A stretch of 64,000 nt of DNA from Sphaerolaimus hirsutus. Its lineage: Eukaryota; Nematoda; Chromadorea; Monhysterida; Sphaerolaimidae. The position numbers and the translations under genes are program-made. The stretch's first letter is position 1, and each line of letters starts with the position of its first letter. Of this stretch, positions 648 to 40,030 are shown piece by piece. Location of the stretch: assembly GCA_964036195.1 (NCBI GenBank), contig OZ038460.1:8807504-8871503 (forward strand). The letters are read 5' to 3'. The notes beneath the pieces were generated by a model, which was not told where the DNA came from, searched no databases, and worked only from the letters and a program-made list of their open reading frames with translations.

Positions 648-773
648 TAGGGGCACTCCCAGACCCTCTAAAAAGCCCTGTAAAATGAAAAATGACATGT
701 AAAGTGTCATATGTCATGTAAAATGCCCTGGAAAATGGCAAACGTACGGTACAGGGTCTGGGACTGGCACCTG
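648..773. mobile_element. GTGCCAGTCCC palindromic element (introner-like family), intergenic copy
   Basis: The ends GGGGCACTCCCAGACCC and GGGTCTGGGACTGGCACCTG are inverted copies, with ATGTAAA/TGTCAT iterations between. It is the same family as the two intron-forming copies at 21571-21774 and 22154-22336. No clear target-site duplication was found. Confidence 0.7.
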
Positions 774-1120: not shown

Positions 1121-1325
1121 AGCTGTGTAAAGTGTAAAATCATGTGAAAAATGTCGTGTAAAATGATAATGAAAATAAAATGAAAAGATTTTATTACTGA
1201 ACATTGCATGACATGACAATAAACCCTTTGCCTGACACTTTGTTTGACAATCGACAAATTTCTATGACACTGTATATGACATTTGACACTTGACTTCACA
1301 CTTTACAGGCTTAGGACTGACTCCT
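1121..1325. mobile_element. Degraded copy of the introner-like family
   Basis: It shares the internal runs of the family (GTAAAGTG, TGACATTTGACACTT, and a central stretch related to the copy at 29682-29855) and ends near CAGGCTTAGGACTG. The left end is not clear. Confidence 0.45.
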
Positions 1326-6887: not shown

Positions 6888-9019
6888 TAAGGTTGGGGAA
6901 CCGAACCGACCCGAACCGAACCGAACCGAGAACCGAGCACTATTTTGGAACCGAGAACCGAGAACCGGAACCGAGCTTGAGAACCGAACCGGAACCGAGA
7001 ACCGTCACTTATACCCGGAACCGAAATAAATACCCGAAAGAACCGAAATTTTCTAGGGATCTTAAAGTTTTTAAACAGCGTTTTTTCAACACCTACATCC
7101 AGAGTTGGAAAAACGTATTTACATTTACCCGAAATACCCGGTTATTCGGGTATTTATATTTACGTTTACGTTTACGTTTTCCAAAAATACCATTACGTTT
7201 TGTTACGTTTTCCTGACCGAAATACCCGGGTACTTCGGAAAACGTAAAAATTCTGATATTTAGGTGTTTTTAGTGGCTGCACCCTCAGAAGAAACTGTAT
7301 ATTGCCATGAATTCTCTACCGATTTTGATGGTTGACCACTTAAAATGGTCAGAATGACGTGCGGATCACTTTAGTCCCGTGATTAGAATGAGTACAAACA
7401 CACCTCAAATATTTAATACACTCCAATACTTAGCCACTATTGTCCACTGACCGGAGTAAATGCTGTACATAAAAATGAAACTGTATTTTGTCATAAACTG
7501 ACAATAAATTATGAACAAAATAATGAAAGAAATGTTATATTTATGATAAAAATTCAACACAATTTTAGGTTCCGTCTTCGGATAGGTATGGCAGATGTCA
7601 CAGTATATTTGATGAGACATTTTTCCAAAATAGGCTAGGCTAAACAAACAGTTTTAAAAGTTGCAATGCACTGAAACAGTGGCTGTAAAGTGTCCATTTA
7701 GCCATGCTGGGCTTTTGAAATTTGGTAAAAGGATCCATTTGGGATGTGGAAACATTTGAGCAAATTATTTATCAGACTGAATTACAAAAATATGTAATTT
7801 TTGCTCAATTTTGATGTCGATATCATTGTTGTTTGTGTTAAATTAGATTATCATTTGTTATCGTTGTCTGACTCGATGTTGTTCATTATGGTGAGCATGT
7901 AGTGCTAAAACATAAAGATATTGTATGGAAATCAGTGATTGACTCATATAAAGGTGAAAATAATGGTATTTTCCAAAGCAAAATGGCAAATACTATGCGT
8001 ATAAAATTTTTATGTTTACGTTTTTTTTTACGTATTCCTCGGTATTTTAAAAATACCTTACGTTTTAGTAATTATACTTTAGATTTGGAAAAGGTATTTA
8101 CGTTTATGTTTACGTTTTCCAAAAATACCAGTATTTGTACAACTCTGCCTACATCTAAGCCTTTAAACAGCAGCTGAACATCTTGGTGCGTGTTCAGAAT
8201 TGCAAAATTCATCTGTTTGCAAAATGATTGCGCGGGAGCGTGTAATTTCACATATACTCCAGCGACATTACACCTTACAATGAAATCTACCATATCCCAC
8301 ATGAATAAAAGAACAAACATAAAAAAATTTCATCATATTTATCAAATTGCTTTGATAAATGTGATGAAATTTTTTATGTATGTTTGTTTATTCAGATGGG
8401 ATATGGTAGATTTCATTGTAAGGTGTAATGTCGCTGCAGTATACACATTATCACTGGTAGTAGTTTTCATTGGTTTTGTGGCCATTTTAACCATAGTTGG
8501 CAAAAGTTATTTATGTTTGTACTCAAAATAATAGGCGTACTCACTCGCGTACTACATAAATACATTTACATTTCCTCCAGAAAAAATACCAGTAATCATT
8601 TACTCGTGTACTTTTTGAAAGTACGCGAGTACAGAAAACGTATATGTTTGCTTTTACACTTTTTTAAATACCAGTATTATTATAACAACTCTGATTTCTG
8701 CATTCTACCATGAAATAATAAGCTGTGATATGCTCCTGTAGTATGAAATATCCAACCAATGTACTTACACATGTAAACTTGGGTATATTGTTTTTCTGTT
8801 GTTCAGCCGATTATTACCCGATACCTGGTTATTTTATTACCTGGAACCAAAATTTTGATCATTTTAGAACCAAAAAAACCGAACCGGAACCGAATTTAAG
8901 AACCGAACCGAGAACCGGAACCGAAAATTTTCAGGAACCGAGAACCGATACCCGAACCGAAATTTTTTGGAACCGGGAACCGAGAACCGGAACCGAAAAT
9001 TTTGAAATTCTCAACCCTA
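6888..9019. mobile_element. TAGGGTTGG-class hAT-like element with AACCG arrays, containing a nested insertion
   Basis: Arrays of GAACC/AACCG occupy both ends in inverted orientation. The flanks GCGCCCTC at 6880-6887 and 9020-9027 are a perfect 8-bp duplication. A 1048-bp insertion sits at 7100-8147. The sister copy at 61735-62811 is half as long and lacks that insertion. Confidence 0.85.
7100..8147. mobile_element. CAGAGTTG-class element nested in the TAGGGTTGG element
   Basis: It runs from CAGAGTTGG to CAACTCTG between perfect 8-bp repeats CCTACATC (7092-7099, 8148-8155). The sister host element around 61940 has one CCTACATC and no insertion, an in-window empty site. Confidence 0.9.
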
Positions 9020-9616: not shown

Positions 9617-12600
9617 ATGCACGCCGCGCAAAACAGAAGCCCAGCGGCGTGGCCGGGCGCGTCGCCCTCGCCCACAACCAACACAGTGTTAACCTCGTGC
9701 GCGCGCATGAACCGCGCCAAAAGCATGCGCGCGCCGCGCCGCCGTCCCACGCAATTGTCGCCGCTGCAACAGTGCCGCAGCGGCGGCGGACGCGGCTCAA
9801 CTACAGTCGACCGGCCAAAAACAGCCAGGGTGGGCCGGCACTCGCTGCCCACGCACAACCGGGCGGCGGTGGGCTCGCTGGCCACCGACATGATCGCCAG
9901 GCAGCTGCAGCAGTTGGCTGCGAGGACTAGCGCCAGTTTGTTTCGCAGTGAACTATCTCAGGGTGCAGTCCCAGACCCTGTACAATGCCCTGTAAAATGT
10001 CAAGTGTCATGCAAAGTGCTGGAAGTCACGGAAAATGCCCTACCAGTAAAATGTCAACCGGCAATAATACAGGGCATTTTCCGTGACTTTTGACACTTTG
10101 CATGACATTTGACATTTTACAGGGCCTTTTCAGGGTCTGGGACTGGCACCTGTAGTCACTTCGCTAGTTGGACTAGACACGGTCATCTGAAGGAAGATAA
10201 ATACTAGACAAACCCGCGTTGCATCATTGAAAACGTTGAGCGCGCAGTGCACTGCATTAGAGCCGTAAAAATCGACTGGGGACATTCTAACATATTGTGG
10301 AATCCAGAGTTGTTAAAATACCGGTTTTTAGAAAGTGTAAGTGTAAGTGTAAATACACTTTCCAAATTTTGAGTATGGATACAAAAAGTGTAAGATATTT
10401 TAAAAATACCTAGGAAAGTGTAAAAAAAGTGTAGGTGTAAAAATTTTTTTTAGAAAAAGCTCTCACTGTTGAGCATTAGAAAACACCACTATTTTTATTT
10501 TTAGATCAATTTATTTGTCATTTTCATGCATTATTTCACATTTTACTGCCTTTTATGCAACATTTCAGACTGTAACAAATACTGTAGTGGTATGAAGTTC
10601 CCTAATAATGGCACCTTTTCAGTGTTGATATTTTACTGATTAAGCAATGCGATACACACTGTTTAAATGCAAGAATGGACATGCAGCAAATGTCAATGCA
10701 AAAGCCAGTTGACTTTGTGTCCAGCTGGTGAATTTCCATTGATCTTGTCCTTTTTACAAAGGTATGATGAAACTGTAGAATACCATGAGTACTGATCAAA
10801 GACTAGTTTGTACATTTGCCATATTTTCTACATTCAATGCATAACTGCATGTGTGCACTGTGCAGTTATTTTTTGTACATGACCCTATTTTATGCTTTCT
10901 CAAAAGCATAAAACAGGGCCATCTGAAAGAAAAAATACACTTTCTGTACCCGGGTATTTTGCTCAGGAATGTGTAAAAAAAGTGTATTGGTATTTTATGA
11001 AAGTGTAAGTGTAAGTGTAAATATAAATACCCATTTACCCATTTTTAGGTGAATTTCACATGTCCAAAGGTGAATCTTGAATGCCCAGCGTGAAATATAC
11101 ATGCCCATGGCCAAACGTGAATCTTTCATGCCAGTCGAGCCCGTGAACTTTTTAACAAAAATAACTAAACAACTGCAGATAATAAAATCTGCTGAGTAAA
11201 ATTGATCTACTATATTTCCTTGAAATACCCCCTGGGGTTTATATTTTCAGAGTGAGAATTTTGATGTGGGTTAAACAAGGGGGTATTTCCAGGCAGATTG
11301 ACAGACGAATTGATAAGGATCAGGCACTGATAATTATTAAAAGGTTTTTTCATGCTGGGCGTGTGAGATTCACCTTTGGACATGTGAAATTCACCTTCGG
11401 GCATGTGAAATTCACCTTTGGGCATGTGAGATTCCACATTATATGTGATTACACAATATGTTAAAGTAGAATCACCCATAAAAATCCACCCGTTTCTGTG
11501 ATGAACAACGTTAAAAGCTGGACGTCGTTTTTAGCGTCTCGGCAAAATCCCGGCAAAGCACCGGAAGGGAGCGTGGCGTGTCAAGATTGCGTGAACAATG
11601 CGTTTGATTGCTTCCATGCGTTGCATTGCCGTGCGCAATATACTCTCACCCCCTCTTTTTGCAGTGACCGCGGCGGCTAACAGCGATGTCGGCTACACCA
11701 GTCAGTTTCTGTATTGTGCTGTTCTTTTTGACGATTTTGCCGCCCGTGTTGCACAACAGTAATTGGAACTGTAAGGCAGACAACTCAGCGGGCGTAATCG
11801 CATTAGACGCACCGTTTTAAAACAATTTTGGTTTCTAATTTGATCATGGTTCTGGTTTGTGTTAATTTCTTATAGTATATTTCTCCCACCTACCTAATAT
11901 CCTGTTTTTTTCTCGAAACCGCCCAGGGGGTTTATTGTTTAACCAGCAAATTTTAAGGGGGGTTAGTTCAAGGGTGGTATTCAAGTGTTTGTTTTATAAT
12001 TTCGTGTTTATCGTAAAGAATAGGCTTTTAGAATACCCAAAACTGGTAATAGTTGTGACAAAACAGATATTTGGACATTGTTTATTATTTTTCCTCCGCT
12101 CACTCATCTGACCTGGGTGTATTTCGGAGGGGCTTACGTACCCTATCCCCCCATGGACTTCTTACCCCCTGGGTTGATATAGCCCTCGAGGACTACTTCA
12201 CCCGGAGGACTACTTCGGCCCGACTTTTATAACATGGGATGATGTAGTCCTCCATACAAAATATCTAATTACACTATTGGGGCATCTGTTGGGCCATGGG
12301 AATGTGTTTTATACTTCCTTTTATTTATTGCGATGCAAGAACACTGCTTGCATCAGATCAAAAATATTTATTGACGCGTGGCACGCCACAATTATGCACG
12401 CGTCTGTTAGGCCTATTGACATCGATTATCGGTGTGTCCAGTTATGGGACTTTCGCCATATTGGATTATTGCGGGGTCAATGGCGTGTGCGGAAAAATAC
12501 ATCCGCCACCCGAATTATGTAATTCGCGTGCAGACGTATTTATAATCGGATTATTGATTGCATGGGTGAATGCATGCAACTTCAATACTCAATTTCTTGG

Positions 12601-15600: not shown

Positions 15601-18600
15601 GGAATGCCTACATGTTTTTACTGGAATTTTATCAGATACCTATATATAATTTAAGTGATATGCTCGTTGACCCCACGCTTTACCTTCACCGTGGCAAGCC
15701 TCCACTTAAATTTCCCCCTGCGCAGGTACGTGCACTTGTGCGCCATCCTGAACGACATGGGCGGCGAGAGGGAGCAGGCGGTCGCCGAGGAGGCGGAACG
15801 ATTCACCGGTGGAAACATATCCAGCATTTTGCGAAACGCCAAGCAGGCGGCCGCTGAACAGCAGGAAAATGAAGAAACTTCCACTACCAGACCCGGCAGG
15901 AAAGCAAATAGCAGGTTGGCAGTGTTGTTTTAGGCACATTTATTTTTTTTTTTTTGGGGGGGGGGGGGTTCGTTACCAGTTTTGGAATGTAGTACAGCGG
16001 TTCTTTTTTGTCAAACTCAAGTTTTTAGACATCACAATTCATTTTATTGTATGCTTAGAAATAGTTCTCGTGCACGTTCTCGTCTTAGCTGTGCAATAGC
16101 CTGGGTCTCCTCAGTAACGATGGCAAAAAAAAAATCGAAAATTCGAAAACATTTTTGAATTTTCGAATTTTTTCAGAATTTTTGAATTTTTATTTCACCC
16201 CTAGAAAAAACTCGATTTATTTTTCAAAAAATTTGAAAATTTGAAAATTCGAAAATACTTTTCGAATTTTTCAGGGAATTCAAGGCAACAGTACGCACTC
16301 TTAAGTTCGACGTGCTACAAAAATCGGCAATTGATACGCGGCGCGTATGAAAAAGCGAAATGTAACATAAAAAACACAAAAAAATGTAGAAATGTCGAAG
16401 AGGTGGACAACGACTAGTGATGGAAAAAGTGCCATGGCGCCAAACACCAAAAGCGCCATGGCACTTTTCCATCACTAACCCCAACACATCCTTTGAGGAA
16501 TGCAGTGTGCCAACCAGGGTTGGCGAAATCTCAGAAAAAAATAAAAATAAAATAAAAATAAAATGGAATATTCAAGAATAAAATAAAATAAAATAAAATG
16601 GAAAATTTAACAATAAAAATAAAAATTGTATAAAAATTCGAATTTTTGTAAAATTTTCGTAAAATTGTATAAAAATTCGTATTTTTGTAAAATTGTATAA
16701 AAATTCACATTTTTTGTAAAATTTTGTCTCATTGCTTGAGTCTCTACCTGTTTATTCATGGATCTGGGGGCAGTCCCAAGCATTGTAAAGTGTCAAATGT
16801 CATGTAAAATGACATGCAAAGTGTCAATTGTCATGACAAATGTAAAGTAAAGTGTAAATTGTCATGACATGTAAAAATTAAAGTATCAATTGTCAAGCAA
16901 ATTGTGTTCAAATCTCATGTTTAATTTCGAAATCTTATGTTTTGTATCCAAATTGTGTTGTTGTTGACTCCAAATTTTATGTTAACATTTGGATACAAAA
17001 ACACAAGATTTGGATCTAAAACATACTATGGACACAAAAACACAAGATTTGGATACACAATTCACACTTTGCATGACATTTGTCATGACAATTGCCACTT
17101 TGCTTGAAATTTTACATGACACTTGACATTTTGCATGACAATTGATACTTTGCATGACATTTTACAAATGTGCCAAGCACACTCCAGTAGTCCTTCTATT
17201 GAAAATGCAAACCATTCTTATCAATAATTGTAACTTTACACTTGCAGCTAGCTAACAATACATACTGCATGCAACTTTTGAAAAGTAAGGGAAAAATTTG
17301 TCACAGGTTTTTCATGTATAGGTCTAATTACAACATTTTTCTGGCCTTGCATGCATGTTTCTGATTTTTTGTAAAATTTTTGTAAAATTTTTGTAAAATG
17401 TGTCATTTTATTTTATTAATGACTTTTGGGAATAAAATAAAATAAAATAAAATGAAACAAGAATAAAATAAAAATAAAATAAAATTTTTATACAATTTTT
17501 ATACAATTTTACTAAAATGAATTTTTATAAAACCAACCCTGGTGCCAACCAAACTATCCCAACCGCTGCGCTCTACTCCCCTACTTCCGCAGAGACAGAC
17601 GCCACATCAAAAAAAATCATTCACGGGTTGTCCAAAGGGCATTTTTTGGAAGGCCTGCAGCCTCACGAATGCCAAAAAAGATTCGAAAATATTAAAACAT
17701 TTTCGAATTTTCGAATTTTTTCGGAATTTTTGAATTTTTATTTCACCCCTAGAAAAAACACTTAAAAATCGATTTATTTTTCAAAAAATTCGAAAATTAG
17801 AAAATTAGAAAATAGTTTTCGAATTTTTCAGGCAATTCAAGGCAACAAAACGCATTCTTAAGTTCAACGTGCCAAATAAAGCGACAATTGATATGCGGCG
17901 CGTATGAAAAAGCGAAAGGTAACAAAAAAAATTGAAATGTCATCCGCGGCGGAAGAGGCGGACTCCGACACATCCGTTTTTATACCGTATTTCCTTGAAA
18001 TATCCCCTCCCCTCAAAATACCCCCCTCAATATTTGCCCCATGAATTTATGACCCCCCCTCGAAATACCGCCCCCAAATTTGGTGTATAGAGAACGTTTG
18101 TGTGGTTTGTTTTCTGGGAAACACGTTAAAAACAATGACTGTGTTGCGTTAGAACAGTGTTTGTACCGTCTACGTACTTATATAAGTCTATAGAGTCTTA
18201 TAAATGGCGGTTTTTGTTGCATTTTTTACATCTGTGTTACTTACAAAAAAAAAACAATTTAGCACTGGGATTTTGAAAAATCTCTGGCAAAGTAATAGAC
18301 CCCCAGGGGGGGGGGGGTTAATTCAAGGAAATACTGTATTCGATGCCAATATTTTATTTGATGCCAATATTCTATTTGATGCCAATATTTTATTTGACCC
18401 CGATTTTTAAATTGTTGTTTTTATTGCCTTTGCTGCGTTGGTGAATTGAATGTGTCAATGTGTGAATTAAATGAAGAAGCAAGACACTGGTCTGTATAAC
18501 TCCTTCCACCATTTTTAATGCTAAATTATGGTAAAAATAAAGTTATAAAAACTGAGGAGAATATGAAAACAGTCCAAATAATGTGTTTGAAGCTTCAGAT

Positions 18601-21600
18601 TCAATACTTTTCCAAAAAAATTTGAAAATTATTTGAAAAAATTTGAAAACTGGCCAAAAAAATTCGAAAATTGCTAAAAAAGATTCGAAAATTCTAAAAT
18701 TCAAAAATTAAATTCGAAATTCGAAAATTAATGTGGGGAAAAATTCAAAAATTCGAAAATTAATTTTAGAAAAAACACTTAAAAGTTTAAATACTTTTTC
18801 TCTTGGGGGTTTGCCATTGTTACTGCAGCCCCAGGCCCAGGGAAAATGGTGTCGCAATGTGCAAACACGCAATGCAACACATGACTCATTCCATTATTTT
18901 TTATGCTAAATTATGGTGAAAATAACATTAAAAAGTGATCAAAACATGAAAACAGTCCAAATTCTGTGTTTAAAGCTTCAGATTCAATGTTTTTTGGAAA
19001 AAAATCGAAATTTATCTGAAAAAATAAAAAAAATAGCTAAAAAAATTCGAAAATTGCCAAAAAAAGATTCGAAAATTTGAAATTCGAAAATTAAATTCGA
19101 AATTCGAAAATTAAATTCAAAATTCAAAAAATATTGTGGAGAAAAATTCGAAAATAAGAAAATTCACTTCAGAAAAAACACTTAAATATTTCAATACTTT
19201 TTTTTGACTGTTTGCCATCGTTACTCCTCAGTAGCAACTCAGCTCAGTGTACTCAGCTGACGGAAGGCCGACGATGGCTAAAAAACACATATTAAATACA
19301 GAAAATCATTGAGTTTCTGTGTTTTTTACACAGAATTTTTTTTGAAAAACTTGGAACTGTTTTTACACAGAAAACACTGAAATAAAAATTGTTTGTTTAA
19401 GGTTGTTCCATTTGATTTAATGCATTCTATGCTGTGTTTAACTGAACAAAATAAGGTATGGGCAGGTATAAATATCAAAAGATTGATGCATACATTAGGT
19501 TTCCAAATATAATTCCAAATTTGAAGTATACAAAAAGTAACAAAAATACAAATGACATCCATGGTGCTTAATCATCCTGCCCATGATGGCAATTGTGACC
19601 AGAGACTTGAAGAGACACCTACACCCACCAGCTCACTACATAGAGGTTATGGCCAACCCTGAAGCTTTCAAAAGCATCACCTGGTGACTGAGGCCTAGTA
19701 CATATATCTAATCCCACTACACATCGAGGCCCATTACACATCTGAACACCCCATAGATGTGTAATGGGCTTAGATGTGTGATGAGTCTTTATCCGTAATG
19801 GGCGTGGGATTAGTGGCGTGTCAATATAAGTTAAAAGATTAGAGTATTATTCGACACACCAGGAAAAATAATGGAATGTCAGTTGACAAATGTTAATTTT
19901 TTTTTGACTTTTCAAACTACTCAGAGGAAAAATTCCGAGGATTCCGAGGAAAAATAGTGCAAAAACGGTTGACAAATGTAAATGGAAGGTAAAATGGGGG
20001 AGGTAAATTGAACACTTCGAGTTTGCCAACACGTGCCCATCACACATATACACCCATCACAGTATCATACATCTAAGCCCATTACGCATCTATGGGTATT
20101 TAGATGTGTAATGGGCCTAGATGCGTTATGGGTAGAATTAGATGGATGGCGGGTCTAGATGTGTAATGGTCAAAGGTAAGATAAGCACCAGGGAACCTAT
20201 CAAGTCACACTCAACCCCCCCCTTTCAGAGCAACCGGCGCGCCAGCCCTAGTAATGCTCGCCCCAGCCATGCACATAATGAACGGCATCTGGAAGGGCAT
20301 GGCTTGGGTGGCTGAGGACATGGACGACGAGGAGGAGGAGGAGGACGAGGAGGACGAGGAGGAGGATGAAGATGAACAGGAGTATACCAGTGAGCTGGCT
20401 GGCGTGGTGCTGCCAAAGTGCCATGGGATGAGTGCCAAGAGAACGGTTGGTTCGGTTGGGAAATTTGAGAGGCCGTATTTTGAGGAAAATTTGAGGGGTC
20501 TTGTCAACTGGTGAAGATGACAGGTGAAAATAAGCATGTAAGTTGTATTATATATGAAGTGACAAGGCATGTATATTTGGCGGACCACATGCTGTGGCTT
20601 TTTCTGACGGAAAACTCCATCATGACGTCATCGGTAATAAAATAAAACATTGTTCTCCCCGAAAAAGAAAAAAAGTGTCTGAAAAAACCGTTCATCGCTT
20701 GTACGCGACTCGGCCTTTTTCTTTTTAAATATTTGTCTTTTTTTGTGAATGTGAAGTATCGTGCCTGCGCGTAATCGGCTAATACATAAGTCAAGTGACA
20801 AGAACGCTTGTAAATGGCATGGCACCAAGAACGTAGCCAGGGGGGGCGGGGGGGCCGGCCGCCCCCCCCCCCCCTTCCCGGGTCGGACAGAAAAATATGC
20901 CAGAAATGGCACTTCCAGAAGACAATTTTGTCACAGTTTGAAAAATTTTTGCAAGCGCGCATTTTTCCGTCACACAACACATAGTTTCGGCTGATTAATC
21001 TCTGCTGCCACAAAGTCAGTGAAAAACTCAAATTCCTGTCCATGTCGCTGTCTATACCTGTGAGATACAGACATACACAGCTGTTTTGGCGCCAATGCCA
21101 ACGCCAGTGGCACCATGACGTCGCACCTACGAATGGCGCCAGCGCCATGGCGTCACGCCTACGAATGGCGCCAGCGCCATGGCGTCACGCCTACAAATGG
21201 CGCCATTCCCTTACTACTGGGGCAAAATTTGGCGCCCCCCTCCGTTCACCGGCCTCCGTATACAATCCGCCCCCCCCCGCTCAAAGAACCTGGCTACGTC
21301 CCTGAATGGCAAGTATTTTCACTTGTCTACTTGTGAAGTAAATACTCGTCACTTCACTTATCGCCCAAAACTAACTGATCACTCGACATTCTGCGAAACA
21401 GGCCACTGATGGATATAATATCAACGATAAAATATACCCTACCCCAGAGACAAAACTCAACTGGATCTAGGAAAAAATCGAAAAGTCAAAGAAACATCCC
21501 TGGAGAAAACAACTGCTCAACTGTGCCGAATAATGCACCAGCAACAAGCAATATGAATGACGCTGGCCAGGTGCCAATCCCATACCCTGTAAAGTGTAAA

Positions 21601-22501
21601 GTAAAGTGCTAAATGTCATGTAAAATGTCATGCAAATTGTCAACTCAACTGTCATGGCAAATGTAAAGTAAAGTTTCATTGTCATGGGAAGTTCAGTACT
21701 AATTGTTTTGATTTACATTTTACATGGCATTTGACACTTTACATTACACTTCACAGGACTTGGGACCACCCCAGGAGTGCCATCACCACAGCAGATTTGC
21801 CAGTTCATCATCTAAACGAAGCAGTTGCATAGCTATCGACTCGGCTGACGGTGCAGCGGAACCACTTCTGGTTGCACCCATGTTGCGACAGCACGCTAGA
21901 TCGATTAGCTCTATTCAGTCTGTTTCAATTGGGGGCCATTTCAGCGCTGCCGGTAGTTCACTGAGCACTGTGAATGACGATTTCCAGGTTCATTTTAGAA
22001 AACCACTGTTTGCAAATAGATTAATTCTTTATGTATATTAAATAAAACACATTTAATTATCCGCAGCAACGGCACAGACTCAACACCAGCATTTCGGAGG
22101 GAAGGAATAGGCAAATGACCTATCTACCATCACACATGGAACCAACAGACCAGGTGCCAGTCCCAGACCCCGTAAAATGACCTGTAAAATGTCAAATGTC
22201 ATGCAAAGTGTCAAAAGTCACGTAAAATGCCAAGTAAAATAGAAAATGTACATTTTCCATTTTACTGGCCATTTTACATTACTTTTGACACTTTGCATGA
22301 CATTTGACATTTTACAGGGTCTGGGACTGCTCCCAGGACAGCAATGTGTCTGTGAGCAGTGATAAAAGAGAGTCAGTCATACAAGTGGAAAATGTGAATG
22401 GTGATCATAATCTAGCGAACTCGCCAATGATCGATAGACACCAACAATCAGAGAATGTTCATTTCCCACTAGTAACTATAAGCTATGTGGAAACTGTGTG
22501 A
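9617..22501 (+). CDS. Unrecognised two-pass membrane protein with acidic run and C-terminal PDZ-ligand-like tail (gene 1)
   Basis: Exons: 9617-9962, 13862-14057, 15726-15914, 20229-20445, 21448-21570, 21775-21987, 22067-22153, 22337-22501. They sum to 1536 nt (511 aa) with agreeing phases. Residues 1-115 are basic and Pro/Ser-rich. Hydrophobic segments lie at about 134-157 and 163-186 with a short loop, then a charged Glu/Gln-rich helix. Residues 273-294 are nearly all Asp/Glu, followed by a Ser/Asn-rich tail with basic SRKKSKSQR. The last residues ISYVETV fit a class I PDZ ligand. I do not recognise the family. Uncertain points: the start (an ATG after an in-frame stop at 9602, or the signal-peptide exon at 11686); exon 2 may end at 14078; exon 6 may begin at 21757 (adds DLGPPQ). 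Introns 5 and 7 are transposon copies. Confidence 0.55.
9959..10152. mobile_element. Introner-like element at the donor of gene 1 intron 1
   Basis: It is a near-complete palindrome with ends CAGGGTGCAGTCCCAGACCC and GGGTCTGGGACTGGCACCTG. The exon 1 donor GT at 9963-9964 is the GT of the element's own GTGC end. The element is followed by TAG at 10153-10155, so it could itself splice; that product would read into TGA soon after, giving a short alternative C-terminus DTVI. Confidence 0.75.
10305..11040. mobile_element. CAGAGTTG-class element, GTAAGTGTAA subtype, in intron 1
   Basis: It starts AGAGTTGTTAAAATACC with GTAAGTGTAAGTG arrays and is closely related throughout to the complete copy at 33006-33792. 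The right end merges into other repeat sequence, so that border is approximate. Confidence 0.6.
11041..11480. repeat. Inverted CACCTTTGGGCATGTGAA-type repeats
   Basis: Several copies of a short unit (GTGAAATTCACCTT with GGGCATG) lie at 11045-11140 and, inverted, at 11365-11445. A CCGTATT-class fragment (CCTTGAAATACCCCC) sits between at about 11215-11295. Exact borders are unclear. Confidence 0.45.
11686..11770 (+). CDS. Candidate alternative first exon of gene 1 with signal peptide
   Basis: The exon body starts at 11665 after a strong acceptor-like CCCTCTTTTTGCAG and ends at donor GTAAGG (11771). The ATG at 11686 opens a peptide beginning MSATPV, then a hydrophobic core, then HNSNWN: a plausible signal peptide or anchor. 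It ends in phase 1, as does the 9617 exon, so either can join the exon at 13862. That would make gene 1 a transcript pair with different N-termini. Another reading frame is also open but meets a stop before this donor. Confidence 0.4.
12144..13658. mobile_element. Nested fold-back complex in gene 1 intron 1
   Basis: Three inverted pairs sit inside each other. The outer arms carry ATGGACTTCTTACCCC and CTCGAGGACTA. The middle arms at about 12340-12435 and 13375-13475 carry GCGTGGCACGCCACAATT. The inner palindrome is at 12570-13082. Duplications were not resolved. No coding content. Confidence 0.6.
12570..13082. repeat. Near-perfect palindrome with ACAGACAAAANGC iterations
   Basis: About 235 bp on the left (GCATGCAACTTCAAT onwards) is repeated inverted on the right. 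The centre carries several copies of a 17-19 bp unit ACAGACAAAACGCGAATGCA. The arms share most positions, so it is young or maintained. Confidence 0.7.
14396..15507. mobile_element. TAGGGTTGG-class element with TTCGG arrays, in gene 1 intron 2
   Basis: The flanks CTGCTCAG at 14388-14395 and 15508-15515 are a perfect 8-bp duplication. The ends carry CGGTTC arrays in inverted orientation, the same family as 6888-9019 and 61735-62811. It contains a nested element at 14830-15269. Confidence 0.85.
14830..15269. mobile_element. CAGGGACGTATCC-class MITE, nested
   Basis: The inverted ends CAGGGACGTATCCAGG and CCTGGATACGTCCATG enclose G-runs, C-runs and a GGCGCCATGGCG palindromic cluster. The flanks CCCGTACA (14822-14829) and CCCCTACA (15270-15277) match 7 of 8. 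Confidence 0.8.
16515..17541. mobile_element. CAGGGTTGG-class element nested in 16115-19223
   Basis: It starts CAGGGTTGGCG and ends ACCAACCCTG. The flanks GTGCCAAC (16507-16514, 17542-17549) are a perfect 8-bp duplication. AAATAAAAT arrays fill both ends. It encloses an introner-family copy. Confidence 0.85.
16764..17187. mobile_element. Introner-family copy, third nesting level
   Basis: It begins CTGGGGGCAGTCCCAAGC and ends GTGCCAAGCACACTCCAG, with TGTAAAGTGTCAAATGTCATG iterations inverted across a centre. It lies wholly inside another transposon, so it was not selected as an intron here. Confidence 0.6.
17985..18336. mobile_element. CCGTATT-class element with TA duplication
   Basis: The ends CCGTATTTCCTTGAA and TTCAAGGAAATACTG are inverted, each bordered by TA. 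Poly-C/poly-G blocks (CCCCTC, GGGGGG) sit inside both ends. Other copies: 31627-31895, 44457-44670, 52760-53070, 53391-53722, 53835-56055, 54357-54637, and one cut by the window end at 63721. Confidence 0.75.
19695..20170. repeat. Inverted ATTACACATCTA repeats in intron 3
   Basis: The unit CCCATTACACATCTA and its inverse TAGATGTGTAATGGG recur at about 19695-19800 and 20035-20170 around a unique centre. This looks like a mobile element, but its borders and duplication were not resolved. Confidence 0.5.
20826..21304. mobile_element. CAAGGACGTAGCC-class MITE in gene 1 intron 4
   Basis: It runs from CAAGAACGTAGCCAGG to CCTGGCTACGTCCCTG with long G- and C-runs and a GGCGCCAGCGCCATGG cluster. The flanks CATGGCAC and AATGGCAA agree at 6 of 8, a weathered duplication. 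Confidence 0.7.
21568..21774. mobile_element. Introner-like element forming gene 1 intron 5
   Basis: The exon ends GGCCAG and the intron starts GTGCCAATCCCATACCC, the family's left end. It ends CTTGGGACCACCCCAG, the right end with terminal CCTG changed to CCAG, which makes the acceptor. A second possible acceptor, CTTCACAG at 21756, would add six in-frame codons. Nothing but the element lies between the two exons. Confidence 0.8.
22151..22336. mobile_element. Introner-like element forming gene 1 intron 7
   Basis: The exon ends GACCAG and the intron starts GTGCCAGTCCCAGACCC. It ends GGTCTGGGACTGCTCCCAG and the frame resumes GACAGC. The 183-nt intron is almost one palindrome. The TTTTACAG 19 nt upstream of the acceptor would shift the frame to an early stop, so CCCAG is preferred. 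Confidence 0.85.
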
Positions 22502-27912: not shown

Positions 27913-30292
27913 TTAATCAGTGCCGAAATACTTCTTGCCAAAGTGCGTGGGCACAGTGTCCCCGATCTCCGAAGTGACCACCGTTACCTCGGGAAATGTC
28001 TTTGCGATGAATGCGGCAGCTGCGTTTCAGTGCACCTCAGTTGAACGGAGGTTTCTAAAAAACCCAAAAATGTTGAAAATGCACCTTTGGGGGTAGTGAA
28101 AAGTGTGAGCAGAGTGACCCTCTCGTCCTGGACGCCATGTTCCTCCAAGACACGCAGGGCCTGGGCCACGGTGCTGCCGCTGCCTGCGGAGTTGTAGTTG
28201 GAAGTTGCTGGGTGTTCAGAAAAGAGTTCTTTTGCACAGTTATGATCTTCTCATGCCGATATTGCATTTCCGATAAAAAAAGTCCTCGATACGTCCGCCC
28301 AGGGGTCTCCTATGGAGGGGGGGGTTACCCACCCCCCAAACCGCTCAGCTATCTATCCCAGAGGCTGCTCAGCTATCTATAGTTCCCGGAGGCAAAATTT
28401 TGGGCTACTACCCCCTAGGATGTCAAAATTCCGTTTTCCGCAGGCAAATTTTTTCCGTTTTCCGGCTGCTGAAATTTTTTCTGCTGAAGTTTTCCGTTTT
28501 TCCGGCTCATTTTCCGTTTTCCGGCTAAATTTTCAGTTTTTCTGCCTTTTTCCCGTTTTCCACCTCAATTTCCAGTTTTTCCGCCTTTTTTTCATTTTCT
28601 GCCTCAATTTTCCATTTTTCCACCTCATTTTACCTTTTTCTGGCTCAACTTTCTGTTATCTGATCAGCCAAACTGGTAAAAATTCATGCAGATTGTCAAT
28701 GGTGTAAAATTTTTTTCATTTTCAGCAAAATTACTGCAAATTTTTTCCACTTCCAGCAAAATTTCAGCAAATTTTATCTGTTTTCCGGCAAAATTTCAAC
28801 AAGTTTTACCATTTCCGTGCAAATTTGATTTTTCTGTTTCCATTTTTCCGGCCTCTTTTTCCGTTTTCCGGCCTCTGAAATTTTTTTTCCGTTTCCATTT
28901 TCTGCCAAGTGCAAATTTTTTTCCGTTTTCCGTTCCGTTTTCCGGCCGCTGAAAATTTTTTTCCGTTTCCGTTTTCCGTAAAAAAGTTTTTTTGACACCC
29001 TACTACCCCCTATAACCCCTCCCCCCAAATTGCTCAGCTATCTACCTATCTGGAGCGATTTTTGAGAAACGATACCCCAATTTTCACTCAAAATCACTAT
29101 TTTTCATACCATTTTATAGATTTTCACCTCCAAAATCACTAGTTCTTGATCCTATTTAACTATTTTCAGCTATTTTTAGTACTATATGCTCTTGCATACA
29201 CATTTTGAGCTATTTTACACCTACTTTTAGCGATTTTTCTCCCTTCTACACCCTGAAAAAGCCTATATATCGACCTTATGGGAACCTTATCAGGATCGGG
29301 ATTTTTTTGTTGTATTTTCTGGATCAGGGTGCACTACCCCCACTCACTCATAATGGGATAAAGCAACAATATCCTTCTATTGACAATGTCCGCCCTGGGC
29401 CACAATCTCGAATAGAGCACCTTGGCTCTCCCATCAGTTTCCGTCTCCACAAGAACCTTGCCAATGCGAATGGAGCGGCAGCATTCGCGGAGAGCCTTCT
29501 CCATGGCTTCTCCGGAGCGGCCGATGGATACTCCGCAGTTGCCCTTGCTGAATTTGACTCCGTTGTAGAGAGCGCCTGGGAAAGAGACGTGTTTGGGGTG
29601 GTGTTTTTTTAGAAAATGGTTTTTTAAATTTACTGGAGAGTAAAAATGAATGAATGAGTTGACGACATGTATTGATCTGATTTGGGGGCAGTTCCATGTC
29701 CTGTAAAGTGTCAAATGTCATGCAGTGTCAATTCTCATGACAAAATGAAAAGTAAAGTGTCAATTGACATGCAAAGTTCAGTAATAAAATCTTTTCTTTT
29801 TTGTTTTTATTGACATTTTATATGATAATTGACACTTTACGGGGCTTGGGACCTGTAGTTGTAAAAACTAAGGATTGTAAACAAATAATTTTCTGGATAA
29901 TAATAAGACAATTTTTATGCCGTCGAAAAAAAGGTCTTGCGTTTTTTTAAAAACATTTCCAACCAACCATTGGGAGTAATGACTTCCTTCGATTCATAAG
30001 GCAGCTGATTGAGGCCCTCCTCGGTAACCAATCGAATCTGATTTTGTGAAAGATGCTAAATAAAAAAATGACAGAACCTACAATCGGGAAAATCAATTCA
30101 ACCTACCAGTCGATCGGCGTAGAAAACGAATTCACTCGGTGTAGTTTCGCTGGAAATCGCGGGTCATAAATAAATGACAAATGAATAAAACAACCATTAA
30201 AAGACTTACATATCGCGAATGATAGTTTGTAATTCACGAATTTGGTCGTTTGCGGGTAGCACTTTCACCCGACCGGCGACTGGAGTTTCCAT
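27913..30292 (-). CDS. UPRT: Uracil phosphoribosyltransferase homologue (animal UPRT)
   Basis: Minus-strand exons in coding order: 30292-30210, 30149-30107, 30037-29968, 29575-29348, 28183-28085, 28019-27913. They total 630 nt, 209 aa, ATG to TAA, all phases agreeing. Family landmarks in order: NDQIRELQTIIRD, FVFYADRL, IRLVTEEGLNQLPY, YNGVKFSKGNCGVSIGRSGEAME, CCRSIRIGK, the PRPP-loop equivalent YPIMSSGSTV (138-147), then VPTHFGKKYFGTD at the C-terminus. Bacterial UPRT makes UMP from uracil and PRPP in the cytosol. Animal homologues keep the fold but are diverged in the PRPP loop, and this one lacks the acidic residue of the bacterial DPMLATGGS motif, so activity is uncertain. Length matches bacterial UPRT. 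Introns are 60, 69, 392, 1164 and 65 nt; the two large ones hold transposons. Confidence 0.95.
28184..29347. mobile_element. UPRT intron 4, filled by a CAGGGGTCTC-class element
   Basis: About 28300-29290 matches the element at 23839-24333 (CAGGGGTCTCC, G-run, AGCTATCTAT, then CTATATATCGAcc near the other end). It is split by the TAGGATGTC element at 28416-29002. The outer borders were not fixed by a duplication. Confidence 0.55.
28416..29002. mobile_element. TAGGGTGTC-class element with TTTTCCG iterations, nested
   Basis: It starts TAGGATGTCAAAATTCCG and ends TTTTTTGACACCCTA. The flanks CTACCCCC (28408-28415, 29003-29010) are a perfect 8-bp duplication. It is related to 3056-3285. Confidence 0.85.
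29682..29855. mobile_element. Introner-family copy inside UPRT intron 3
   Basis: It begins GGGGGCAGTTCCATG and ends GGGGCTTGGGACCTG, with TGTCAAATGTCATG iterations. Unlike the gene 1 copies, it lies in the interior of the intron and does not supply the splice sites used. Confidence 0.65.
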
Positions 30293-35929: not shown

Positions 35930-38590
35930 GAGGCCCCCGGGGCTAAAAAATATAAAGTGTGATATAATGCATTTGTGGGTTACTGATTACAATGATTTGA
36001 AATATGCACTCCATTCTGACAGTACATTACAATAACCCTGAAATTGAACCCAAAATGGGGCCAAAACTTTCAAATTGTGAAATGATGCATTGTGGGTTTC
36101 TAATTGCACTGATTTGATATATAATGCACTCCATTTTGACACTACATTACCATAACCCTGAAAATGAACCACTGGGGCCAAAAACTTTCAATTTGTGAAA
36201 TGATGCAATTTTGGGTTTCTGATTGCACTGATTTTAAATTTAGGTTTCTGATTGCACTGATTTGATATATGCACTCCATTGACACTACATTACCATAACC
36301 GTTAATGAACCCATGGGGCCAAATACTTTCAATTTGAGAAATGATGCATTTTCGGGTTTCTGATTGCACTCATTTGAAATATGCACTTCATTTTGACACT
36401 ACATTACCATAACCCTGAAAATGGACCCATGGGGTTAAATACTTTCAATTTGAGAAATGATGCATTTTCAGGTTTCTGATTGCACTGATTTCAAATTTGG
36501 GTTTCTGATTGCACTGATTTGATACATGCACTCCATTTTGACACTACATTACCATAACCCTCAAAATGGACCCATGGGGTTAAATACTTTCAATTTGAGA
36601 AATGATGCATTTTCAGGTTTCTGATTGCACTCATTTGAAATATGCACTTCATTTTGACACTACATTACCATAACCCTAAAATGAACCCCCTGGGCCAAAA
36701 ACTTACAAACCATAAAATGATGGATTTGTGGGTTTCTGAGTGTAGCGATTTCAAATATGCCCAGGGCTTAAAAAATTAGAAATTGTGAAATGATTCAATG
36801 TGGGTTTCTAATTGCACTGATTTGAAATATGCACTCTGTTTTGACACTACATAACCCTGAAAACTACATAACCATAACCCTGAAAATGAACCTCTGGAGC
36901 CAAAAACTTTCAATTTGTGAAATCATTCATTTTTGGGTTTCTGATTGCACTGATTTCAAATTTGGGTCTCTGATTGCACCAATTTGATATATGCACTCCA
37001 TTTTGACACTACATTACCATAACCCTAAAAATGAACCCATGGGGCCAAATACTTTCAATTTGAGAAATGATGCATTTTCGGGTTTCTGATAGCACTCATT
37101 TGAAATATGCACTTCATTTTGACACTACATTACCATAACCCTAAAATGAACCCCCTGGGCCAAAAACTTTCAAACCATAAAATGATGGATTTGTGGGTTT
37201 CTGAGTGTAGCAATCTCAAATATGCCCAGGGCTTAAAAAATTAGAAATTGTGAAATGATCCAATGTGGGTTTCTAATTGCACTGATTTGAAATATGCACT
37301 CTGTTTTGACACTACATAACCCTGAAAACTACATAACCATAACCCTGAAAATGAACCTCTGGAGCCAAAAAATTTCAATTTGTGAAATCATTCATTTTTG
37401 GGTTTCTGATTGCACTGATGTCAAATTTGGGTCTCTGATTGCACCAATTTGATATATGCACTCCATTTTGACACTACATTACCATAACCCTAAAAATGAA
37501 CCCATGGGGCCAAATACTTTCAATTTGAGAAATGATGCATTTTCGGGTTTCTGATAGCACTCATTTGAAATATGCACTTCATTTTGACACTACATTACCA
37601 TAACCCTAAAAATGAACCCCCTGGGCCAAAAACTTTCAAACCATAAAATGATGGATTTGTGGGTTTCTGAGTGTAGCAATTTCAAATATGCCCAGGGCTT
37701 AAAAAATTAGAAATTGTGAAATGATTTGATGTGGGTTTCTAATTGCACTGATTTGAAATATGCAATCCATTTTGACACTACATAACCCTGAAAACTACAT
37801 AACCATAACCCTGAAAATGAACCTCTGGAGCCAAAAACTTTCAATTTGTGAAATCATAAATTTTCAGGTTTCTGATTTCACTCATTTGAAATATGCACTT
37901 CATTTTGACACTACATTACCATAACCATAAAAATGAACCCCCTAAGCCAAAAACTTTCAAATCATAAAATGATGCATTTGTGGGTTTCTGATTGTAGCGA
38001 TTTCAAATATGCACTCCATTTTGACACTACATTACTAAAACCCTGAAATTGAACCCCTAGACCCAAAAATTTCTTATTGTGAAATGATGCATTTTGCAGG
38101 TTTCTAATTGCACTGATTTGAAATGACTCAATTTCAACTCTACATTACTGTAAGCCTTAAATTGAACCCATGGGGCTAATAAATTAGAAATTGTGAAATG
38201 ATGCATTTGTGGCTTTTTGATTGCCTTGATTTGAAATATGCACTTCATTTTGACACTACATTACCATAACCCTGAAAATGAACCCCCAGGGCCAAAAATT
38301 TTCAAATCATAAAATGATGTGTTTGTGGGTTTCTGATTGTAGCGATTTCAAATATGCACTCCATTTTGACACCACATTACTAAAACCCTGATAATGAACC
38401 CCTGGGCACAAAAACTTTCAATTTGTGAAATGATGCATTTGTGGGTTTTTTATTGCAGTGATTTGAAATGTGCACTCCATTTCTACTCTACATTACCATA
38501 ACTTTTTAAGTCTAACCCCTGGGGCTAAAAAATTGAAAATTGTGAATTGATGCATTTGTGGATTGATGATAGTGATTTTTTGAAATATTC
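35930..38590. repeat. Satellite array with higher-order structure
   Basis: The monomer is about 115-120 bp and carries GTGAAATGATGCATTTGTGG, GGGTTTCTGATTGCACTGAT, TGACACTACATTACCATAAC and GAACCC(C/A)(T/C)GGGGCC. Variant monomers repeat in blocks: GAACCCCCTGGGCC recurs at 36683, 37148 and 37614, giving a period of 465-466 bp made of about four monomers. No coding content. Confidence 0.85.
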
Positions 38591-38599
38591 ATACCATTT

Positions 38600-39615
38600 T
38601 CCAAATTGGGGGCTGACTTTACAGGAGTTTCCAAACTAGGGGCTGTGTTTACAGGATTTAGAGGGGGTCCCCATGGGGTGCCATTTTTGGGGGGTCTCCA
38701 GGGGGTGCCATTTTCTGGAGGTACATATGGGGGTGCCATTTCAAGGGGGTCCACATGGGATGCCATTTTTTGGGTGGTCCCCAGGGGTGCCATTTTTTGG
38801 TGGTCCTCAGGGGGTGCTATATTTTTTTTTGCGGGGGGGTCCATAGGGGGTGCCATTTGGGGGGGGGGTCCCCAGGGGGGTGCCATTTTTGGAGAGTCCC
38901 CAGGGGGAGCCAACTTTGGGTGGGTCCCCAGGGGGTGCCATTTTTGTGGGGGTTCCTAGGGGGTGCCATGTTTGGGGGGTCCCCAGGGGGTGCTATTTTT
39001 GGGGGGTCCCAAGGGGGTGCCATTTTTGGGGGGTCCCTAAGGGGTGCCATTTTTTGGTGGTCCTCAGGGGGTGCCATATTTCTGGGGCCCTAGGGGGTCC
39101 CATTTTTGGGCGGTTCCCAGGGGGTGCCACTTTTGGGGGGTTCCCCGGGGGGTGCCATTTGGAGGGGGGTCCCCATTGGGGTGTCAGTTTTTGCAAGCCT
39201 CTGAGAAGTGGGTACCTATAGCAGGATTCTCTCCAACCTTCAGTTGGGTTTTGTAGAGTCCCCAGGGGGAGCCAACTTTGGGTGGGTCCCCAGGGGGTGC
39301 CATTTTTGTGGGGGTTCCTAGGGGGTGCCATGTTTGGGGGGTCCCCAGGGGGTGCTATTTTTGGGGGGTCCCAAGGGGGTGCCATTTTTGGGGGGTCCCT
39401 AAGGGGTGCCATTTTTTGGTGGTCCTCAGGGGGTGCCATATTTGTGGGGCCCTAGGGGGTCCCATTTTTGGGCGGTTCCCAGAGGGTGCCACTTTTGGGA
39501 GGTTCCCCAGGGGGTGCCATTTGGAGGGGGGTCCCCATTGGGGTGTCAGTTTTTGCAAGCCTCTGAGTAGTGGGTATCTATAGCAGGATTCTCTCCAACC
39601 TTCAGTTGGGTTTTG
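38600..39615. repeat. GGGGGTGCCATTTTTGGGG minisatellite with a 360-bp internal duplication
   Basis: Units of about 27 bp (GGGGGTGCCATTTTTGGGG plus GTCCCCA) run without pause. The block from about 38895 to 39255 is repeated almost exactly from about 39257 to 39615, each copy ending in TTCTCTCCAACCTTCAGTTG. Frames here are open in all directions and encode only repeats. Confidence 0.85.
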
Positions 39616-40030
39616 TGGTTCTCTACAATTTATACCACAAGGATTTACAAACACAAAAAGAACAGCAAAGCACAAATGTAACCAATTGAAGATTACAACA
39701 AAGTTTGACACCTTGCAAAAACCACACTATCATATCACAAAAACTATACCACACAGAATGCACACTGCACACCATCATACCAAATCGCAAACTGTCTACA
39801 TTTTACTACCGAGTTTCATGCCCAACCATTTTACAGAAGTTTACAAAAATCCATTCCAAAACATTGCATCTTTGGTATTGGTCTTGTTATTGTTGGTAGA
39901 TTACATACCACATTTCAAAACACATGCCTAGCATGTGGGCAAACTTAACTAAAGTATCATATTTTCTCCAATGGTATTAATTGTAGAGAACCACAAAACC
40001 CGACCGAAGGTCGGAGAGAATCCTGCTAGT
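39577..40030. mobile_element. Element with inverted GCAGGATTCTCTCC...GTGGTTCTCTACAA ends abutting the minisatellite
   Basis: The stretch 39577-39633 and 39966-40030 are inverted copies (GCAGGATTCTCTCCAACCTT against its inverse). The left end is shared with the minisatellite units, so the array may have grown from this element's end. Confidence 0.55.

Follow-up and report, generated by a model that had tools for sequence, protein, structure and literature searches.

How do two predicted introns of a single gene come to be whole copies of one transposable element? The gene lies on the forward strand of a 64,000-nucleotide stretch of the Sphaerolaimus hirsutus genome (hereafter the window), where the original prediction placed element-derived introns at 21571-21774 and 22154-22336. 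Both stretches are present there, each a whole copy of a hairpin MITE of about 180-200 bp, and excising them together with an ordinary intron at 21988-22066 does join the exons in phase 0 up to a stop codon at 22501. That the introns start exactly at one end of the element was likewise borne out; the claim that they also finish on its other end needs amending, since the terminal CAG comes from a CWG target-site duplication (TSD), as its second copy, and not from the element. The gene is laid out as follows (a caret marks a splice border).

21403..21570, + strand: coding exon A, open frame in phase 0, read from 21403 and possibly extending upstream, ending ...GGCCAG
21568..21570, + strand: left TSD CAG of intron copy 1, which stays in the exon
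21571..21774, + strand: intron 1, element 21571-21771 (GTGCCAATCCC...GGGACCACCC) plus second TSD copy CAG at 21772-21774, with 4 in-frame stops
21775..21987, + strand: coding exon B, 213 nt, 71 codons
21988..22066, + strand: ordinary GT-AG intron, not element-derived, CAG^GTTCATT...CCGCAG^CAACGG
22067..22153, + strand: coding exon C, 87 nt, 29 codons
22151..22153, + strand: left TSD CAG of intron copy 2
22154..22336, + strand: intron 2, element 22154-22333 plus second TSD copy CAG at 22334-22336, with 5 in-frame stops
22337..22501, + strand: last coding exon D, 54 codons plus stop, C-terminus ...SYVETV

Searches of PDB and Pfam returned no match for this gene and a search of the genome no second copy of it; its exons were therefore read from frame, splice sites and the stop-free join. 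Both element-derived introns are hairpins: the inverted arms of intron 1 (21578-21636 and 21707-21765) are 81% alike, with an RNA fold of -76.6 kcal/mol and a right end one base below consensus length, and those of intron 2 (22181-22249 and 22250-22318) are 93% alike, with a fold of -103.5 kcal/mol. Just upstream of the gene, a 32-bp unit stands in three tandem copies (21110-21205).

We consider it very likely, judging from genomic sequence, that these stretches are introners, that is, copies of a non-autonomous hairpin transposon, probably PIF/Harbinger-like (NuwaI-type), that become spliceosomal introns when they land in exons. The label is applied because the transposon has many copies, with ends that fall on exon borders; removing a copy restores conserved reading frames, copies take one orientation in the sampled coding exons, and distant paralogues are without it; within the family, intron similarity reaches both (inferred) splice borders. 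The introner reading as originally proposed is thus supported, though it lacked the TSD as source of the 3' AG and did not note that the element ends are asymmetric or that a share of copies, the CTG type, has no AG.

The two ends of the element are unlike, with GTGCCAGTCCC at the intron start and GGGACTGCCCC at the opposite end (GTGCC at the start and GCCCC at the finish in short form; GTGCCAGTCCCAGA at one end and TCTGGGACTGCCCC at the other in wider form). Among 85 copies with paired ends, 63 had one of each kind and 9 had two alike (4 AA, 5 DD), 13 being ambiguous. Insertion duplicates a 3-bp CWG target, for which the wider consensus c-CWG-g is the best site: after mismatch limits had cut 82 copies to 67, 48 had the same TSD left and right, which was CAG or CTG in 47. 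Exact 29-base left ends occur 334 times after CAG and 231 times after CTG in the genome (p 2e-5), so about 40% (231/565) adjoin CTG, as the CWG target can be met in either orientation. Exact right ends occur 412 times before CAG and 246 times before CTG; the difference in CAG excess between the A-end and the D-end was not significant (p 0.22).

A whole-genome search had been suggested for the proposed mobile family, and when run with the intron 2 copy against the 348-Mb assembly it confirmed multiple copies bearing terminal inverted repeats (TIRs) and TSDs elsewhere in the genome. It yielded 80 alignments from 40 candidates scored out of 3407, so the family is large. On contig C1, two near-identical coding-like segments (L033 and L034), separated by about 200 kb, have the element in matching positions, which looks like another insertion inherited through duplication. 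The window itself holds further copies outside introns, as predicted, none with coding-like sequence on both sides.

650..770, - strand: short family copy, TSD CAG/TAG, no coding-like flanks seen
1126..1319, - strand: diverged copy
9962..10149, - strand: full copy, TSD CAG/CTG, coding-like on one side only
16764..16866, no strand assigned: partial copy
17061..17166, no strand assigned: partial copy
29685..29858, - strand: diverged copy; a UPRTase-like exon lies about 90 bp downstream, also on the - strand

The exon last named (29415-29591, - strand) belongs to a uracil phosphoribosyltransferase-like gene (Pfam UPRTase, E 2e-9). Elsewhere in the window, 38512-39726 is a tandem repeat, open in several frames in both directions and with recurring peptides, GGAIFGG and PPKMAPP among them.

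The anatomy of the element suggests how an insertion could become an intron at once. Landing at a CAG target with its GT end first, a copy would read CAG^GTGCC...GCCCC-CAG^, in which the 5' splice site would be the element's own GT and the 3' splice site the AG of the duplicated target. The spliceosome would then take out the element plus one copy of the target and give back the original message; since the element inserts at CWG and duplicates it, such a removal adds nothing. Insertions in the reverse orientation would have no donor and would be purged. Because the preferred c-CWG-g looks like the exonic part of a splice junction (CAG^G), the transposon would be pre-adapted to intron making. 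This proposed mechanism can be read from the sequence itself, given the junction-like target and the GT carried by one element end.

Copies chosen blind to genes bear on how often the element lands in exons. Our sample comprised the first 20 listed copies with an exact left end in each class (CAG and CTG), all from the first 15 Mb of contig C1, and the fractions given here may not extend to diverged copies; 37 of the 40 loci were scored, L029 and L037 being without a second end and L046 too poor a match. A leave-one-out codon model called 8/17 CAG-type and 6/20 CTG-type copies sense-coding and none antisense, with 1 ambiguous. The original prediction called for a test of enrichment at exon borders; in this sample copies were enriched in coding exons: 14/37 copies were sense-coding, compared with 35 of 4000 junctions left by random 180-bp removals (a further 29 of which were called antisense). 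Reading frame agreed across the copy in 15 of the 16 cases with coding-like flanks on both sides. A first run of the model, trained partly on the loci being scored, had called 12/17 CAG-type and 6/21 CTG-type copies sense, with weak antisense calls for L038 and L066; in the leave-one-out run L038 became sense and L066 received no call, which makes individual calls close to the threshold uncertain. A supposed equality of CAG and CTG among non-exonic copies was dropped, being based on circular counts. A candidate antisense exception at L040 (TMEM165-like, Pfam GDT1) was also set aside: a usable ordinary intron (GTAATA...TTTACAG) surrounds the copy, and neither model run called this locus. Exonic copies cannot be read through as coding inserts, because all 24 of the 24 picked for this check contain in-frame stops (1 to 9 each). 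Apparently, the element often lands in coding exons mainly one way round because its ends let the cell splice the copy out as a new intron.

Conserved proteins whose genes are crossed by a copy point the same way. With the copy removed, the PDZ domain of a RIM gene (CAG type) aligns to a solved structure across the join (E 1e-33) with a 3- to 6-residue gap nearby, which falls where RIM1 and RIM2 also differ. Three CTG-type cases align without a gap at the join: a BCKDHA-like enzyme with a solved structure (E 4e-17), an SLC23-like transporter with the solved structure of SLC23A1 (E 1e-11) and the kinase-homology domain of a guanylate cyclase with a solved structure (E 1.6e-9). The BCKDHA-like gene has a Pfam score below the curated cut-off and could be dispensable, since an uninterrupted paralogue (42% identity) is present in the genome. 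Pfam matches also span the removed copy for Oscp1 (CTG type, E 4e-17), where the sole genome matches of the OSCP1-like protein are the two exons flanking its copy, and for calpain domain III, with a score just over the cut-off.

CTG-type copies have no 3' AG, yet interrupt conserved exons. The spliceosome normally needs a 3' AG, and in C. elegans splicing can proceed without one. The clearest instance is a copy, CTG at both ends, common to three guanylate-cyclase paralogues at one site (two near-identical genes on contig C2 and one on C15). Between C15 and C2, dN is 0.073 and dS 0.32-0.39 over 64 codons (dN/dS about 0.2), and the introns of the two lineages are 82-85% identical. Genome matches in the wider guanylate-cyclase-like family number 22, and another 16 of these (36-55% identical, perhaps partly kinases) run through the site uninterrupted, 1 of the 16 containing a stop. 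Since three paralogues keep the copy and 16/22 matches are without the insert, the intron was gained and then inherited through gene duplication under purifying selection. The L021 cyclase gene bears a second CTG/CTG copy as well.

GT-AG alternatives were enumerated in 13 individual copies. Within the range scanned, the nine CTG/CTG exonic copies offered in-frame alternatives as follows: one had none, six had only ones adding 24 to 63 nt, and two (L064 and the first L021 copy) had ones that change the message by 3 or 9 nt. An internal GT-AG pair within the hairpin (CT^GTAAAATG...TTTTACAG^GG) was rejected, as the consensus count leaves 37 nt, out of frame. The simplest reading of the cyclase copy is a GT-TG intron. 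It is fairly probable that CTG insertions in sense orientation are removed too, as predicted GT-TG introns, and we lean, a little less firmly, towards the broader proposition that one family makes introns whose 3' end would be set by element and hairpin instead of AG, with sense exonic CTG copies removed in this way. A large share of the landing sites lack the usual intron-ending letters and would then seem to work nonetheless.

A competing reading of the CTG class is that its exonic copies are young, unspliced and harmful insertions in one haplotype, only the CAG type forming introns. Their want of a 3' AG would fit, as would the greater number of CAG-type copies (334 versus 231 at one end, 412 versus 246 at the other) and the finding that CTG on the left goes with CAG on the right seven times against one of the reverse (some rows being duplicated loci), as if the AG were being restored. 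Harmful insertions, however, sit poorly with a CTG-type copy kept under purifying selection in three cyclase paralogues whose introns have diverged between lineages, with a second CTG/CTG copy in one of those genes, or with exonic CTG-left copies that the model called six times sense and never antisense (one of the six, L065, has CAG on its right side). We regard this alternative as unlikely, though it deserves weight. GT-TG splicing of sense CTG copies is the reading we retain.

Removal might instead be driven by the long RNA hairpin, not by the spliceosome. Models for this are the nonconventional introns of euglenids and IRE1-type cleavage; the near-perfect hairpin of intron 2 would bring the ends together, and no AG would be necessary. 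The antisense hairpin is almost identical, yet no antisense copy was called exonic, and what differs is the GT end; we give this route very little credence. The absence of antisense copies among the exonic calls, with a hairpin nearly the same either way round, indicates that the terminal bases matter, and hence favours RNA splicing from a donor at the GT end over removal from DNA. That the copies are ordinary MITE insertions in pre-existing introns or pseudogenes, their ends matching exon borders by chance, has an even slimmer likelihood: the model made no coding call for 23 of the 37 scored copies (one an ambiguous case) and some do lie inside ordinary introns (the TMEM165-like L040), but chance accounts poorly for the frame agreement of 15/16, the excess of sense-coding calls over random junctions, structure alignments that run through the join and a dN/dS of about 0.2 in copy-carrying paralogues. 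Least credible of all is programmed, ciliate-like excision from somatic DNA, which would restore the target exactly, as transposase-derived excision does, and would accommodate CTG-type copies without a 3' AG, but which would be blind to gene strand, whereas exonic calls were 14 sense to 0 antisense for a hairpin whose orientations differ chiefly at the terminal bases.

In the NuwaI group, an autonomous partner of the element would be expected to encode a DDE transposase and a Myb/SANT protein. The genome contains 163 matches to DDE_Tnp_4 (PF13359), and most of those listed form a very uniform Harbinger-like set that looks recently active (L071 and L072 are 97% alike over 2516 bp). The two copies read from this abundant family, as candidates for the partner, did not carry the introner ends, and one terminus that they share reads GGCCCCACGC.

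Other features of the host genome were noted alongside. A Pfam search found a Srx/Srv chemoreceptor domain, which points to a nematode, and a search for SL1 RNA gave no match in the host genome or in any control genome. The mitochondrial COX1 frame stays open when TGA is taken as Trp, and AGR presumably encodes Ser, judged by conserved residues; the COX1 motifs we take to be nematode-like. A segment of contig C762 (L070, 7702-8887) is presumably mitochondrial cytochrome b; two overlapping frames are joined there near 8060, a frameshift that is either programmed or an assembly error.

Our literature search found neither this family nor nematode introners, and a 2025 introner paper could already cover this family or one related to it. 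The original prediction could not match the family to a known one; its CWG duplication does fit the NuwaI group of PIF/Harbinger-like (PHIS) transposons, a group known in animals that this duplication marks (PMC4482050), although no transposase with these ends was found in the two DDE_Tnp_4 copies read. NuwaI TIRs usually start GGG (PMC4482050); one end here is GGGGC and the other GTGCC, and a GGG-type end may have been altered to give the GT end. In the NuwaI passages of that source, the listed hosts are fish, beetle, crustacean, mollusc and anthozoan, with no nematode, and introns are unmentioned (PMC4482050).

Animal introners as such have been described before, although the 2022 survey gives them for only two animal groups, copepods being named, so that ongoing intron gain from transposons is reported for few animals (PMC9860276). 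Our family shares with the DNA-transposon introners of Gozashti et al. (2022) multi-copy introns similar up to the splice borders, TIRs and short TSDs; one class (Chrysochromulina, 4-bp TSD) likewise supplies its own 5' splice site, the 3' site coming from elsewhere at the target (PMC9860276). By description, the present family is set apart by its 3-bp CWG duplication, animal host, asymmetric ends and AG-less CTG share (PMC9860276). If the GT-TG reading is true, the CAG and CTG classes would amount to a natural large-scale experiment, within one genome, on the spliceosome's need for a 3' AG. GT-TG introners appear in the literature we found only in Micromonas, where IE-B and IE-D are repeat-derived introns with the splice sites predicted here (PMC3879977). 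Compared by description, those are 25 (IE-B) and 6 (IE-D) members in an alga, while here GT-TG would follow target orientation and be mixed with GT-AG in one family (PMC3879977). Single GT-TG introns are recorded in human genes (PMC4176328). In another animal, Fritillaria borealis, the U2 spliceosome is described as removing very many introns without GT/AG (PMC13326754); unlike the introns proposed here, those have AG/AC and AG/AT termini and YAY triplets, and a duplication of U2AF is reported there (PMC13326754).
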